DNA from: a candidate division Zixibacteria bacterium SM23_81
GTDB lineage: Bacteria; SM23-81
NCBI GenBank assembly: GCA_001304015.1
Contig: LJUY01000022.1
Coordinates: forward strand, 1-36,995
DNA: 36,995 bases
Reading direction: 5' to 3'
Each line of letters opens with the position of its first letter. Position 1 is the stretch's first letter. A program made the translations under genes and the position numbers. Below the pieces are notes generated by a model. It was not told the DNA's origin. It searched no databases and saw nothing but the letters and a program-made list of their open reading frames with translations. Shown piece by piece: positions 2,974 to 8,914 of the stretch.

Positions 2974-4695
2974 TTATTTCACCAAAAGCATTTTTCTGAC
3001 AAAAGCCTTACTACCGTGCTCCAGCCGATAGAAGTACACCCCGCTGGCCACCCGCTCGCCGTTGTCGTCGAGGCCATTCCAGCCAACCCGATGAGGACCA
3101 GCACCCAGATTTCCGTTCAGGAGGGCATGCACCAGCTGGCCGTTGATATTGTAGATTCTCAAGGCAGCAGGTCCGGCATGGGGAAGATAAAACTCAATTT
3201 GGGTCCTTTCGTTAAAGGGGTTGGGGCGATTTATCAGACGGAAAGGATTGTCCTTAAACACCGGATCCTGACGCGCAACCCGTGTGACATCCTTAAATAT
3301 TGCAGATAGCTGGCGAGCGTCTACCTCGCCGGAAATCCAGTTTGCCTTGTAGGCGAACCGTCCGTGTGCCAGGTAGTGGAGGGCCACGATGGGAAAGGTC
3401 ATTGACTTTCTTTGCATGGGATTCACGATGCGGACCTCTCCCATGTTGATGGCCATTCCGCAGATGTCGCAGTTTTCAACCCCATCCATTTCCATGTAAT
3501 CGACATAGGGGGATTTTCTTAAGAGTTTTTCTCCCCGGTGAACGACAGGCAGCTTGGCGATGGTTTCGATGAACCTCTCGGCCAGCTCGGCACCATCTAG
3601 CAGTCCATTATTGTTGCTGTCGGAGTTGTCCATCAGGGTGTCGAAATAGTCCTCATAATCATCCCTCAAGCCATCGGCGTCGGCGTCGTTGGAAGTCTCG
3701 ATGGAGAAGTGATCGGTGTCATAGTGCGCGAGGACCTCCTTAAGCAGCTTAATGTCAACTCTGCCAAAGTTCACAGTTCCATCGAAGGAAAAGCTACCAT
3801 GCTCCATGTAGTGGAGCCCCACGTAAGGTATATCGATGGAGATGTCCCGCATGGGGTTGTGGATGGTCACATAACCCATGTTGAAGGTCTCACCGCAGAC
3901 CTGACAGTTTTCTATTCCATAGGTCAGATTGTGTTGTACATAGCAGCAGGATTCGGAGGCAATCTCTGGCAGGGAGTTGATGATGGCGATGAACTTGAGG
4001 GCCTCCTCGGGTCCATTGGGGATCTCTGCGGCGGGGTAAGCAAGATGAGTACCTAAGAGTATTTCCTCTGGATAGGTGAGGTAGTCGCCATCTAAGTCCT
4101 CGGCTCCCAGGGAAAGCCAGTGAGAGTCTTGCCCTCGGGCTTTCAGGGGCGTCAGGGCAAACAAGAAGGAGAGGGTGGCGATTGGTAGGGACTTTTTTAC
4201 GAGATGGGGGACGGACGGTCTTTGAGCGTCAAGAAGTGTTCGGCACTCCTGGTGAGTTTTTTGATAATAGGGCAAAAGGGAGGGGGTCGCTCGACATCCG
4301 GGGCAGGCCCAGTGGAACAGAATCTCCTGACCGTTGTCAACAAGGTTGTTCTGTGTGTAACCATTGTCGGCGAAGTTCCTGACGCAGCAGCCAGGATACC
4401 CAAACAGCAAACCTTCGGTCATCACGGTCTGGCGATCCTTGCCCACAGGTTTTTTGTCAAACCTCCGGGTGTAAAAATCCAAATAGCGCGATGACTTGCT
4501 GAAGATCAGCTCCGTGATGGTCCCTCCATTGGCCAGCTTTCTGTCCACCGTGTTGGTCTTGAGACCCAGGTGGCGCAGGGCTTTGATCTGCCCGCGGGAA
4601 AAATTGCTCTCCCAGCGACTCAGGGGCTTGACATCCTTTTTGGTGAGCAAAGCCAGATAAGCGATATCAAAACCCAGCTTTCTGAGGGCCTTCAT
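2974..4695 (-). CDS. Gene A: GYPGCC-domain / duplicated Cys-module exported protein with FlgD-like tail
   Basis: The protein is 573 residues. I chose ATG 4695 because of the GGGGGGTG Shine-Dalgarno; a longer frame from 4827 would translate across the promoter. Residues 1-165 form a Lys/Arg-rich, probably cytosolic domain with GYPGCC (99-104) and CPGC (131-134), reminiscent of DUF483-like GYPxCC proteins. Residues 166-190 (VKKSLPIATLSFLFALTPLKARGQ) look like an internal signal peptide or anchor. Two related segments of about 170 residues follow. Each has EF-hand-like Asp loops (DLDGD 201-205, DADADG 337-342, DSNNNG 359-364) and then NCxxCG, NMGxVxIxNPM and LHYxxHGxF (263-302 and 408-447). Residues 488-573 are a FlgD-Ig/type-9-like C-terminal domain (RPNPFN, GVYFYRLEHG, RKMLLVK). 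I do not recognise the whole protein. The paired cysteines could bind metal or cofactor, or be disulfide-bonded. It has its own promoter and terminator, so it is likely monocistronic. Confidence 0.75.
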   Translation of the reverse strand: MKALRKLGFDIAYLALLTKKDVKPLSRWESNFSRGQIKALRHLGLKTNTVDRKLANGGTITELIFSKSSRYLDFYTRRFDKKPVGKDRQTVMTEGLLFGYPGCCVRNFADNGYTQNNLVDNGQEILFHWACPGCRATPSLLPYYQKTHQECRTLLDAQRPSVPHLVKKSLPIATLSFLFALTPLKARGQDSHWLSLGAEDLDGDYLTYPEEILLGTHLAYPAAEIPNGPEEALKFIAIINSLPEIASESCCYVQHNLTYGIENCQVCGETFNMGYVTIHNPMRDISIDIPYVGLHYMEHGSFSFDGTVNFGRVDIKLLKEVLAHYDTDHFSIETSNDADADGLRDDYEDYFDTLMDNSDSNNNGLLDGAELAERFIETIAKLPVVHRGEKLLRKSPYVDYMEMDGVENCDICGMAINMGEVRIVNPMQRKSMTFPIVALHYLAHGRFAYKANWISGEVDARQLSAIFKDVTRVARQDPVFKDNPFRLINRPNPFNERTQIEFYLPHAGPAALRIYNINGQLVHALLNGNLGAGPHRVGWNGLDDNGERVASGVYFYRLEHGSKAFVRKMLLVK

Positions 4696-4765
4696 AAGAT
4701 CACCCCCCACACAAATGAAGTGCCCCAAACCTAGCCGAGGCAGTTTCTGTCGCCTCTTCAGAACT

Positions 4766-4794
4766 ATTTTAGCAGAAAAAAGAGGGTTTGTCAA
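4766..4794 (-). promoter_or_regulatory. Sigma-70-type promoter of gene A
   Basis: On the minus strand: TTGACA (4794-4789), a 17-nt spacer, and TAAAAT (4771-4766). The transcript would start near 4759, giving a leader of about 65 nt before ATG 4695. The remainder of the 4696-5093 gap holds only the terminator at 4951-4979; a 76-codon minus frame in it shows no coding character. Confidence 0.8.
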
Positions 4795-4950
4795 CACTTT
4801 TCTTGGAAAAGTCGGAAAGAGTTCCATTCAAGGTTCAAGCTGGTCGAAAGTCAATTCGCGCCAGGGCAAGTTCAAGTTTCGTTCTAAGGGGTGCAGAAGG
4901 AAAAGCGCGAGAGCATTTTCCTCCTTAAATTTCGGATCATGCCGACATAA

Positions 4951-5093: not shown

Positions 5094-6113
5094 TTATTTC
5101 ATCTCAAGCTTATCTTTGATGCGACTCAGCTCTTCCTCGAGCTCTTCCAGGCGCGTCTCTAAATCCTCCAGGTCGAAATCCTCCAGATATTTCTCCACCT
5201 CTACGTCGATGTCCTGCAAATCATGGCTGGGAGCCATTATTTTCATGCGCTTGAGCTTTCGGGGAAACTCCTTCAGCTCTTGGCGCAATTTCTTATGATC
5301 GGGTCGCTCCTCTAAGGTGGCCTTCAGCTTCATTTCCTTGCCTTTGCGGAGCACCACCAGCTCTATCTCATCTCCCTCCTCGTGGTCGCCGATGACGTCG
5401 TGAAGATCGGGAGTATCCTCGATACGCTCCCCGTTGGCCTTGATGAGTATATCGCCGGCTTTGAGTCCAGCTTTCTCAGCAGGGCTTTCTGACACCACCT
5501 CGCTGATCAAGATTCCACGGCCGTCTTTGACCTCGAAGTACTTGGCCAGTTGGTCTGTGAGATCGATAGTATGGACTCCCAGCCACAGATCAGAGCCTAA
5601 CCAACTGCACAGGTGCGGGAGGCCTAATAGACTGAGATCATCGTCAAAGTCGAGGAATAGCTTCTTCTTCCCAGTGTCACCCAAGATCTTTATGGTGCAT
5701 GCTTTCTCATGATCGAATTCTCCGACCTTGGCGGTGAGGGTTTTCTTCTTGCCGTCTCGGGAGATATCCACCTTCACCTGGGTATCAGGAGCTGTCTTTC
5801 GCACCAGCTTGGACAGACGGCGGGGGGAAGTGACCTCTTTGCCGTCGTATTTCAGGATGATGTCACCCACCTCGAAACCAGCCTTTTCCGCCGGGCTTTC
5901 CTCGACGACATCCGTGACCAGCACACCCGCATCTGAAGAGATGTCCGTGGCCTCCCGAAGTTCCGGGGTCAGCCGTTGGAGAGAAACACCCAACCAGCCT
6001 TCGTCTTCCCCTGCCACAGCGGTGCCGCTGTAAAAGGTCAGGGCGGAAGCAGCCACTAAGGCCATCAGCGACGGGAGAATCGAAAACGCACCTCTCCGAA
6101 ACGCTGCTTTCAT
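5094..6113 (-). CDS. Exported double-PDZ protein with C-terminal coiled coil
   Basis: The protein is 339 residues. ATG 6113 is preceded by GGAGG and starts a signal peptide or anchor (residues 1-34, ending TAVAG). PDZ domain 1 spans about 38-132 (GWLGVSLQ, SPAEKAGFEVGDIILKYDG). PDZ domain 2 spans about 176-268 (LWLGVHTI, SPAEKAGLKAGDILIKANG). The C-terminus from about 305 is a charged heptad-like helix (LEDLETRLEELEEELSRIK). It resembles the PDZ half of DegP/DegQ/HtrA proteins, but no trypsin-like protease domain is present, so it is more likely a periplasmic adaptor or sensor. It is the last gene of the operon sigma - anti-sigma - repeat protein - PDZ and starts 19 bp after the repeat-protein gene ends, which fits a role in the envelope response of that sigma factor. 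Confidence 0.85.
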   Translation of the reverse strand: MKAAFRRGAFSILPSLMALVAASALTFYSGTAVAGEDEGWLGVSLQRLTPELREATDISSDAGVLVTDVVEESPAEKAGFEVGDIILKYDGKEVTSPRRLSKLVRKTAPDTQVKVDISRDGKKKTLTAKVGEFDHEKACTIKILGDTGKKKLFLDFDDDLSLLGLPHLCSWLGSDLWLGVHTIDLTDQLAKYFEVKDGRGILISEVVSESPAEKAGLKAGDILIKANGERIEDTPDLHDVIGDHEEGDEIELVVLRKGKEMKLKATLEERPDHKKLRQELKEFPRKLKRMKIMAPSHDLQDIDVEVEKYLEDFDLEDLETRLEELEEELSRIKDKLEMK

Positions 6114-6132
6114 GGTAGCACCCTCCTTTCCC

Positions 6133-7683
6133 TTATCTCCCTGAGGAGATGAGATAGATGTTCGAATTGTTAGCATCGAGTTGGATATTCGCTTTTCCCT
6201 GGCCCAGCTTTCCTCGAGCCCACTGAGATGCCCCATCCTTTTTAATCTCCAGGGGAAAGTCGGAGTCGATGGTGCCGTAAAGGGCCTCAGCGGTTATGAA
6301 GGCTGAGGGCTTCGATGGCAGGTTTACCCGGACTACGCCGAAGGCGGTATCTAGACGATAGAGATTCTGGCGGATCTCATCGATGATGAGCTCGATATCT
6401 CCGTTTCGGCTTAAAATGATAACGTCTCCGGCAAGCTTTTCAGCCCGAATACCCCCCTTGGTGTTTTCAATATGTGTTTGCCCCATGACATCGGCGATGC
6501 TCACCGGGGACCCCGAGTTGCTGACATGGAGATCGCCCATCACCCCCATCACCTCCACGTAACCGAGGTGATTTTTGACCCATGCGTCGCCGTCGATGTT
6601 AACCACCTCGATGGGCCCAGCGATGTTTTCCACGTTGACTGCCCCGGAGATCTCCTTTAGGCTCAAGGAGCTGAATTCGTTGCTGGCGACCACATCGCCC
6701 TGAATATTGCTGGCCTCAATGGGACCGAAACTGGTCTCGGCGTGAAGCGGGCCGTTTCCCCCTGTGACGATGATGGGTCCCTGTCTGTTGTGAAGCTCGA
6801 GATCTCCAGCACATTGGTGGATTTCCAGTGAACCATGGCTCGTTCTGGCCCTGAGGCCCTTGGTGAAGCCCTGTACACGTACATCGCCGAAATGGTTCTC
6901 CACTTGAAGAGGACAATCCTGCGGCAGCTCCACCTGTAGAAGCACAGATGTTGCCTGCACCGTTTTAGGGCGAACGTCTGGAAAGCGAGTGCTTACCTTG
7001 ACGATTGAATTCTCCGGGACCACCTTAAAGGTCACCTCGCGGGCGTATCGCTGGGCATCGACTTGGGAGGTGGCCAGGACCTTGATCTCTGCCACCAGGT
7101 TGGCACTGGCTATTGGGGAGCCATTGATCACCACGTCGCCGAACTCGTGGGTCACAAAGAATGGTGGTGAACCTGCGAGCGGGATGGTCTTTTCCAGCCG
7201 ATGGGAAAACGAGGACGCCCAAACAGATTGCAAGTGGTGCTCAAACAGTTGATCGAACTTTGCGCGCCACATGTTCCAAAAATGCTCCTGCTGTCGGTCA
7301 AAGTCGCCCCACCAGCGTTGCCTGGCCAAATCCGAGGTCTGAACTCGGGGAAGCTCCTCGAGATATCTGTGTAAGGCTCTCTGGTAAAGCCGCATCGTGT
7401 GCTGAGAACTCTTCCTAAAATCCTCCAGCTGAGCGTCTAGGTCAGTCTCTGTGATTCGCCAGAGGGAGTCCATCAAATCCTCAGCGGTGGGCACTGTGAG
7501 AAACCACCTGGAGTCCAATTGCCGGATCTGCGTCGTCTGAAGCCCTTTCTGTTGGGCAAAGACGGTGGTGACCATGGCCAGCATGAACAGTGGTATCAAA
7601 GCCGTCGATTTCAGGCTTATGGCCCAGGCATTAATATTGGGCCGAGACGGCCATCTCTCGAAGGGTAGATATTTTGCTGTCAT
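6133..7683 (-). CDS. Exported repeat protein, DUF4097-like, 18-residue periodicity
   Basis: The protein has about 516 residues from ATG 7683. The frame is open further upstream, but that part overlaps the anti-sigma gene deeply and looks like shadow sequence. The start is uncertain: no good Shine-Dalgarno is visible, and translation is probably coupled to the preceding gene, which it overlaps by about 50 bp. A hydrophobic signal sequence (STALIPLFMLAMVTTVFA) is followed by a helical region rich in Trp, Gln and Arg. From about residue 260 there are nine or ten 18-residue strand repeats of the type xxGxVEVxxVxGDLHVxN, as in DUF4097/adhesin-like beta-solenoids. Such proteins are often found beside ECF sigma and anti-sigma genes. 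A role as an envelope component or stress effector is inference from this context. Confidence 0.8.
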   Translation of the reverse strand: MTAKYLPFERWPSRPNINAWAISLKSTALIPLFMLAMVTTVFAQQKGLQTTQIRQLDSRWFLTVPTAEDLMDSLWRITETDLDAQLEDFRKSSQHTMRLYQRALHRYLEELPRVQTSDLARQRWWGDFDRQQEHFWNMWRAKFDQLFEHHLQSVWASSFSHRLEKTIPLAGSPPFFVTHEFGDVVINGSPIASANLVAEIKVLATSQVDAQRYAREVTFKVVPENSIVKVSTRFPDVRPKTVQATSVLLQVELPQDCPLQVENHFGDVRVQGFTKGLRARTSHGSLEIHQCAGDLELHNRQGPIIVTGGNGPLHAETSFGPIEASNIQGDVVASNEFSSLSLKEISGAVNVENIAGPIEVVNIDGDAWVKNHLGYVEVMGVMGDLHVSNSGSPVSIADVMGQTHIENTKGGIRAEKLAGDVIILSRNGDIELIIDEIRQNLYRLDTAFGVVRVNLPSKPSAFITAEALYGTIDSDFPLEIKKDGASQWARGKLGQGKANIQLDANNSNIYLISSGR

Positions 7684-8299
7684 AGGCATCGAAGAGGGCT
7701 CGTTGAGCCCTGATATCGTAAGAGTTTTTCTCCAGGGCGATGCTGCACTCATCGATGGTCTCTTCCAGGTGGACCAGCTTCTGTCGGAAAAGGCCAGCCT
7801 GGTCCGGATCCATTTGGTGAGCTCGGTGGGCAACGATATTCTCTAATGCAGAGATAGAATTTTGATAGTATGTTCGGGCCAGATCGATATCTGATTGGGC
7901 TGCGGCCAGTAACTGAGCTTGACTCTGTGCGGTTTGGGGTGTCGATGTGGGCGAAGAGAAGTGCTGGCGGAGAAAGAAAAGGCTGAGGAATACAGCAGCC
8001 AGGCCCATGGCCCAAGCGATTCTGGGTCGCCAAGCAGACAAAGGAGCTCGGCGAGGGATTTTCGCAGGCACAACGGGCGGTTGGGCCAGGATTCTGCGTT
8101 CAATGGCTGGCCATAGATCGGTGGTCAAGATTGCGGGAGCCAAACTTCTGGCCTGATGCACGAGTTGCCGCAAATCTTCCAGCGCCTTTTGGCATTGAGC
8201 ACAGCCACGAAGATGTGTCTGTACCATAGCTGCTTGATGTGATCTGAGCTCCCCGTCAAGATAAGGGGAGAGTAATCTTTGGATTTTACGGCAATTCAC
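7631..8299 (-). CDS. Zinc-finger anti-sigma factor, single-pass membrane protein
   Basis: The protein is 222 residues with a GTG start directly after the sigma-factor stop (TAGGTG) and a GGGAG Shine-Dalgarno 8 nt upstream. The N-terminus carries the ZAS zinc-binding pattern C3, H29, C33, C36 (CRKIQRLL, HLRGCAQC), which in this family binds the sigma factor. A single transmembrane helix lies at about 93-110 (IAWAMGLAAVFLSLFFL). The outside part is helical (SDIDLARTYYQNSISALENI...). The arrangement fits an anti-sigma factor that holds the co-encoded ECF sigma at the membrane until an envelope signal arrives. Its 3' end overlaps the next gene. Confidence 0.9.
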   Translation of the reverse strand: MNCRKIQRLLSPYLDGELRSHQAAMVQTHLRGCAQCQKALEDLRQLVHQARSLAPAILTTDLWPAIERRILAQPPVVPAKIPRRAPLSAWRPRIAWAMGLAAVFLSLFFLRQHFSSPTSTPQTAQSQAQLLAAAQSDIDLARTYYQNSISALENIVAHRAHQMDPDQAGLFRQKLVHLEETIDECSIALEKNSYDIRAQRALFDAYDSKISTLREMAVSAQY

Positions 8300-8914
8300 C
8301 TATGCTTCTCCCACGGGGACATTGACCATAGCGGAGATCAAGCTGAGGCGTGAGCGCAAGGTCTTTCGCAAATGAGATCGTGCCTTGTGAAGCTGAGATT
8401 TTGAGGTTCCTACCGAGCAGTTTAGCATCTGGGCAATTTCTTGGTGCTGGAATCCTTGGACGTCGTGCAGGACGAACACCATCCTTGATTTGGGAGGCAA
8501 AGAGGCGATGGCTTCTTCCAAAAAGGGCTTGAGCAATCTGGTATCATTCCCTTGGGCTTGGTGGCCCCCTGCCTGGACATATTCACTGGTTTGCGCTTTC
8601 CTGCGCCGTTGTCGCTGCCTGAGAGCGCTCATGGAGATGTTGGTGGCGATCCGGTACAGCCAGGAGCTGAAGGCCGCGTCACCGCGAAAGGAATTTATCT
8701 TTCGGTGTACCTGAACAAAGACGTCTTGGACGATATCCTCGGCATCCTGCACGTTGTTGGTCAGCCGGATGGCCAGCGCATAAACTTTGTCTTTATGCCT
8801 TTTGTAAAGCTCTTCCAGGGCGCCGATATCGCCTTGTTGACATCGTTTGCAGAGAATCAGGTCCCCAACTTTAGCCTCTTTTTGCAAACCCCAACTCCCA
8901 CGGAGGGCTCTCAT
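8300..8914 (-). CDS. ECF RNA polymerase sigma factor
   Basis: The protein is 204 residues from ATG 8914. Region 2 lies at about 34-105 (ELYKRHKDKVYALAIRL, DAEDIVQDVFVQVHRKI, WLYRIATN), and region 4 at about 131-187 (ASLPPKSRMVFVLHDVQGF, EIAQMLNCSVGTSKSQLHKA). There is no region 1 or 3, as expected for ECF sigmas. ATG 8914 has no Shine-Dalgarno. A TTG ten codons in (8887) has GGGAG nearby and would give a more typical N-terminus (QKEAKVGDLILCKRCQQGD), so the exact start is open. It leads a four-gene operon with its anti-sigma. Confidence 0.9.
   Translation of the reverse strand: MRALRGSWGLQKEAKVGDLILCKRCQQGDIGALEELYKRHKDKVYALAIRLTNNVQDAEDIVQDVFVQVHRKINSFRGDAAFSSWLYRIATNISMSALRQRQRRRKAQTSEYVQAGGHQAQGNDTRLLKPFLEEAIASLPPKSRMVFVLHDVQGFQHQEIAQMLNCSVGTSKSQLHKARSHLRKTLRSRLSLISAMVNVPVGEA

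Follow-up and report, generated by a model that had tools for sequence, protein, structure and literature searches.

A duplicated, putatively metal-binding module in a predicted surface protein and its pairing with a cysteine-rich DUF483-like domain

Proteins of the DUF483 family (PF04467) carry a GYPxCC motif followed by a Cys pair and a Thr, and elsewhere they accompany radical SAM and methyltransferase domains (PMC11437467). Three other described systems are close to parts of the gene analyzed here: 1) bacterial TSP3 repeats (PF18884), with their DxDxDGLxDxEE ... DxDGxxDGxE calcium loops, 2) treble-clef or C2H2-type zinc domains, in which a CxxCG knuckle and a hairpin are followed by a helix with two His four apart, and 3) cargo proteins of the type IX secretion system (T9SS), with their C-terminal sorting domain. 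Outside the Tat pathway, how exported proteins are loaded or otherwise prepared before they exit is a recurring open question.

Our window, which is the whole stretch of DNA analyzed, is 36,995 nucleotides long and comes from the candidate division Zixibacteria bacterium SM23_81. A sequence-only reading of it had drawn attention to a 40-residue pattern that occurs twice in one predicted protein, encoded by gene A. New here are the full unit to which this pattern belongs, its spread, and its near-strict pairing with a predicted cytoplasmic domain with four Cys (the N-domain); we found no paper in the literature on this pair. The more unusual parts of gene A are ones that this reading did not mention, namely the leading His of each module, the signal peptide within the chain, the domain paired with the modules, and the tail for secretion.

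Gene A and its repeated module

Gene A lies in a minus-strand open reading frame (4827-2974) that translates into 617 residues. Its true start is very likely the internal ATG at 4695, because this codon is conserved in orthologs and has a putative promoter upstream. The orthologs, found in two other genomes, share 55% identity over the full length of gene A and align from the Met at 4695, and the promoter-like site sits between this codon and the first ATG of the frame (4827).

2974..4695, minus strand: gene A, 573 residues from the conserved ATG, with the reading frame open upstream to the ATG at 4827
4766..4794, minus strand: candidate promoter of gene A, TTGACA-17-TAAAAT, proposed from the consensus only

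Counted from this start, the residue numbers originally given for the two copies of the pattern (263-302 and 408-447) are exact. A search for an RNA element in the 5' region of gene A gave no match in Rfam.

The duplication is real: NCxxCG, NMGxVxIxNPM, and LHYxxHGxF are found in both copies, each behind the acidic, calcium-type loop that had been described. Since the two copies align with 38% identity over 101 residues (E 3e-21), the repeat is not due to chance. However, the unit is not one of 40 residues but spans about 145 and opens with a conserved His. The leading His is followed by two acidic loops, of which the first is DxDxDxL..EE, and by a helix. Next is the CxxCG knuckle and, after a hairpin, the HxxxH helix; one more hairpin and one more helix close the unit. 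In gene A, these elements are placed as follows.

4120..4122, minus strand: leading His of module 1 (H192), at a position conserved across modules
3712..4098, minus strand: module 1, with calcium loop, CxxC, and HxxxH, from the copy alignment and family conservation
3895-3906, minus strand: CxxC of module 1 (C264 and C267)
3799-3813, minus strand: HxxxH of module 1 (H295 and H299)
3709..3711, minus strand: leading His of module 2 (H329), at a position conserved across modules
3277..3687, minus strand: module 2, with calcium loops, CxxC, and HxxxH, from the copy alignment, family conservation, and an AlphaFold2 model
3460-3471, minus strand: CxxC of module 2 (C409 and C412)
3364-3378, minus strand: HxxxH of module 2 (H440 and H444)

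We aligned six module copies and used them to scan bacterial genomes, which yielded 57 loci; 130 modules from these loci were then aligned. All 130 have the two Cys and, in LHYxxHG, the first His. Because the peptide pattern with which family loci were found covered the His region, we recounted conservation in the 64 modules without a match to it: the two Cys and the first His are found in 64/64, and the second His is found in 61/64. In the whole alignment, the second His of HxxxH is kept in 124/130 modules, being otherwise N, D, or C, and one module of genome G138 has R in its place. The earlier description of the Cys and His positions as fixed therefore holds for both Cys and the first His, but seven modules have N, D, C, or R for the second His, so that a full four-ligand site is not present in every module. 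The acidic loop keeps D1 and D3 in 128/130 modules each, D5 in 123/130, and E12 in 127/130, and the Met of NMG is found in 127/130. Of 125 modules, 116 have the leading His 6-11 residues ahead of the loop's first Asp, the chance expectation from His frequency being 18%, and six further modules keep HQLPL and then have an insertion.

Two copper sites were considered and rejected. An amino-terminal copper motif at the mature end does not agree with the frequent Pro at position 2 or with the presence of the same His ahead of inner modules. A site of the CuA type (two Cys, two His, and one Met), suggested by the near-invariant NMG Met, was discarded because Met is changed to Cys always together with the Gly before the knuckle (3/3). 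These paired changes, which occur in exactly three modules, likely point to a disulfide across the hairpin.

The AlphaFold2 model of module 2 of gene A, computed with 112 sequences, has a pLDDT of 94.5 and a pTM of 0.86. In this model, two short strands flank C409 and C412, and a beta hairpin precedes the HxxxH helix, with H440 and H444 four apart at model helix 100-107. The treble-clef layout (knuckle CxxC, beta hairpin, and helix with the second ligand pair) is thus present in the secondary structure of the model. Covariation, which is weak (Neff 107), picks out hairpin pairs (408-415, 405-418, 420-433, and 421-436), pairs that join the knuckle strand to what follows the His helix (407-451 and 407-454), and one pair between the calcium-loop region and the module end (347-457). 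Because of the last three pairs, we think that the two halves of the module probably pack against each other.

The view that the pattern belongs to no named family survives for one half of the module only. Profile searches of Pfam, NCBIfam, and PDB sequences gave no family for the Cys/His half, but the acidic-loop half is like bacterial TSP3 repeats, with 21 of 112 modules matching the PF18884 profile (best E 4.8e-8); module 2 of gene A itself matches no family at E 0.1. The calcium-loop half resembles TSP3 repeats, but in the modules it always continues into a CxxC/HxxxH half, which TSP3 proteins do not have. Matches to ribosomal eL43 (E 0.06 and up) covered only the CxxCG knuckle region and were dropped. 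The module model matched no solved fold in the PDB, no chain among 999 having a Z of 2 or more, which does not prove a new fold. Neither profile nor fold searches of Pfam and the PDB gave a convincing match to a known treble-clef member, and a treble-clef fold is still compatible with the model. The modules share the knuckle, hairpin, and His helix with treble-clef and C2H2-type zinc domains, and differ from them in being repeated and, by prediction, exported, with an added leading His. The modules with this Cys/His half, predicted to be secreted, make up a family that has not been described.

The idea that the fixed Cys and His make up a metal or cofactor site has gained in weight, since Cys/Cys/His invariance across about ten bacterial groups is now joined by a predicted knuckle-hairpin-HxxxH helix. 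We consider it likely that the modules carry a metal site, and they are putative binders of calcium and zinc, probably of both. A redox or disulfide role for the CxxC, as in an envelope thiol protein, would suit its position within an exported protein and the extra disulfide likely gained in three modules. We find this rather improbable, however, because a CxxCG followed by HxxxH after a hairpin is, in the model, the layout of a zinc site, because no thioredoxin-type match to the module was found in the PDB by sequence or fold, and because conservation is as strict for the first His as for the Cys. Far less probable still is a catalytic metal site of a surface enzyme or toxin, with the N-domain as immunity protein or inhibitor. 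An open site of this kind would agree with three ligands being invariant and a fourth variable, and with invariant residues that are not ligands, e.g., the Met and Gly of NMG. However, up to five tandem copies fit binding or structure better than catalysis, toxins do not usually carry a protective domain on their own chain, and no enzyme or toxin family was matched.

A DUF483-like N-domain linked to the modules

Ahead of its modules, gene A encodes a domain of about 160 residues.

4216..4695, minus strand: predicted cytoplasmic N-domain, DUF483-like, with GYPxCC and CxxC, from an alignment of 50 sequences and an AlphaFold2 model (pLDDT 93.1)

Four Cys (C103, C104, C131, and C134) are each present in 50/50 sequences. 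The DUF483 profile matches 28 of 32 N-domain members at E up to 0.1 (best 1.3e-4), and a profile-profile comparison gave a probability of 93 and an E of 3e-7, while the N-domain of gene A falls below the PF04467 cut-off (14.1 bits vs. 25). From these comparisons, the N-domain is a distant DUF483 relative. It has GYPxCC and the later Cys pair with Thr in common with DUF483, but CxxC where DUF483 has CxxxC, and the radical SAM and methyltransferase company of that family (PMC11437467) was not seen here. At L167, a single genome encodes a pair of DUF483-type proteins near each other, with a YPxCC motif.

The best fold match of the N-domain is PDB 2guk, a Porphyromonas gingivalis protein of unknown function, onto which the first 113 residues of the model superpose with a Z of 10.2 (rmsd 3.4 over 108 residues, 11% identity). 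We take 2guk to be PG1857. PG1857 shares an operon with a flavodoxin, and iron shortage induces it 48-fold (PMC10434189). This connection is a lead for the N-domain, not a test. A structure search for the N-domain in viral proteins gave nothing at E 0.001.

Residues 5-68 of the model also weakly resemble R3H, KhpB/EloR, and Alba-type folds (Z 3.8, 3.5, and 3.0, respectively). Together with the invariant CC and CxxC, this resemblance could suit an RNA- or DNA-binding protein that regulates its own gene, its four Cys sensing metal so that production of the secreted metal-binding protein is adjusted. We regard this as unlikely, since these Z values are in the range of common arrangements and 2guk is a clearly better match.

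The N-domain is fused ahead of the modules at 36 loci, including gene A and a few near-duplicate records. At 16 planctomycete loci, it is encoded instead by a separate gene on the same strand, in which the N-domain begins 47-88 nt after the stop of the module gene. Gene order is therefore opposite in the two cases, with the N-domain first in fused loci and the modules first in planctomycete pairs. These counts refer to loci that reach far enough, six others being cut by contig ends. All module proteins that could be judged are tied to an N-domain, bar one paralog (L083) with no adjoining N-domain, whose genome has another pair. The module gene is rare and patchy, since only five of the 386 genomes nearest to the source genome have full modules; the same five have the N-domain, and none has the N-domain alone. 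A lone planctomycete N-domain copy (G583) lies at a contig edge. Because the link has been kept through two gene orders, it argues that the N-domain and the modules function together.

In the fused genes, no ATG is conserved before the internal signal, i.e., there is no conserved separate translation start for the modules. G138 (L144, 2026-4183) differs from the other fused loci with their single frame: the sequences for the N-domain and for the modules overlap there in two frames, and the latter begins with an ATG and a signal peptide of its own. This overlap may be natural or may come from a sequencing frameshift or an assembly error. At two other loci (L081, 355-2726, and L085, 3-2025), tandem module genes in separate frames have one common downstream N-domain gene.

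Predicted export and a proposed mechanism

Two further features of gene A bear on where its product would be located.

4132..4206, minus strand: predicted internal signal peptide VKKSLPIATLSFLFALTPLKARG, a hydrophobic segment at the same place in fused loci with linker sequence
2989..3225, minus strand: T9SS-type C-terminal sorting domain (TIGR04183 / FlgD_ig), from profile matches above cut-off

The linker between N-domain and modules has a basic start, a hydrophobic core, often an AxA, and then DxHWLPV, and in a Zixibacteria copy (L082) the internal signal ends in a lipobox, LTGC. In gene A, the signal is found about 165 residues into the protein, behind a folded domain. Planctomycete module proteins, which have no N-domain, start with signal-peptide-like N-termini. 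The tail of gene A scores 33.9 bits with TIGR04183 (cut-off 23) and 37.6 bits with PF13860 (cut-off 27), and the source genome encodes SprA (799 bits, at G000:C94), by which we judged the presence of a T9SS. Planctomycete and verrucomicrobial module proteins end in other tails. In its above-cut-off sorting domain and the SprA of its genome, gene A is like T9SS cargo, from which it differs by the predicted cytoplasmic domain of 160 residues before the signal peptide. Because of the internal signal, the planctomycete N-termini, the T9SS tail, and SprA, the modules are most likely outside the cell and the N-domain inside.

An uncut internal anchor would instead make gene A a transmembrane sensor, with modules sensing metal outside and the N-domain relaying the signal inside. 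The order of cytoplasmic domain, hydrophobic segment, and outer modules would indeed suit a type II membrane protein. We nevertheless give this little credence, as the hydrophobic segment has AxA signal-peptidase-like sites and, in one case, a lipobox, as a T9SS tail needs release from the inner membrane, and as planctomycetes encode the two parts as separate proteins.

Our preferred reading, to which we would give slightly less than an even chance, is that gene A encodes a surface metal-binding repeat protein with a cytoplasmic domain that prepares or escorts it before export. The product would be a preprotein in three parts, consisting of the cytoplasmic DUF483-like domain, the internal signal peptide, and the mature surface protein. 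The signal would send the part downstream of it across the inner membrane by Sec and, we infer, then be cut, leaving the N-domain in the cytoplasm, and the mature protein with its two modules would be handed by its tail to the T9SS. In each module, calcium would be bound by the Asp-rich loop, which would also hold the fold. One zinc or iron would be bound in a treble-clef-type knuckle-hairpin-helix by Cys-x2-Cys and His-x3-His, perhaps joined by the leading His. The N-domain would act on the modules before export, and this would account for its fusion to them or its place in an adjacent gene. Most likely, it would mature or escort the Cys/His site, a role that we propose tentatively; the metal site, for which conservation and predicted structure argue, is likelier than this job of the N-domain, for which gene linkage argues.

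More tentative again is the proposal of an undescribed two-part envelope system, in which a four-Cys DUF483-like protein would be dedicated to a secreted repeat protein that binds calcium and, by a new C2H2 fold, a second metal, the two proteins being fused or adjacent in opposite order and the former possibly installing a metal or a modification before export. The pairing would be a dedicated one, of a metal-cluster-like domain in the cytoplasm with a putative metal-binding protein that is secreted, and DUF483-like proteins would gain a possible client. With two small genes, one for the module protein and one for its partner, preparation before export would become testable.

Spread of the family and gene neighborhood

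The modules make up a new family, with an unmatched Cys/His half, that is known here only from metagenome-assembled genomes of uncultured bacteria in about ten groups: Neomarinimicrobiota, Cloacimonadota, WOR-3 and Stahlbacteria, KSB1, Zixibacteria, Poribacteria, Krumholzibacteria, Verrucomicrobiota, and Planctomycetota. Planctomycete loci are mainly from Phycisphaerae and Sedimentisphaerales, and proteins have one to five module copies. Besides the N-domain, no neighbor gene is conserved beyond near relatives. Carriage by viruses or plasmids was not found, the plasmid matches being to the T9SS-type tail only.

Upstream of gene A in the window, minus-strand genes at 5094-8914 encode a two-PDZ protein, a DUF4097 protein, a zf-HC2 anti-sigma-like protein, and an ECF sigma factor, which likely form an envelope-stress operon; this set is not conserved beside modules at other family loci. 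Also on the minus strand, 3-1658 and 1450-2508 each encode a beta-helix protein, with repeats of the Chlamydia PMP type and a weak similarity to NosD. About 100 bases covering the putative promoter and leader of gene A (4696-4804) recur with 79% identity at 2679-2779, upstream of the neighboring beta-helix gene. There are only two copies of this stretch in the whole genome, and in the one at 2679-2779 the duplicated start context runs into a stop codon.
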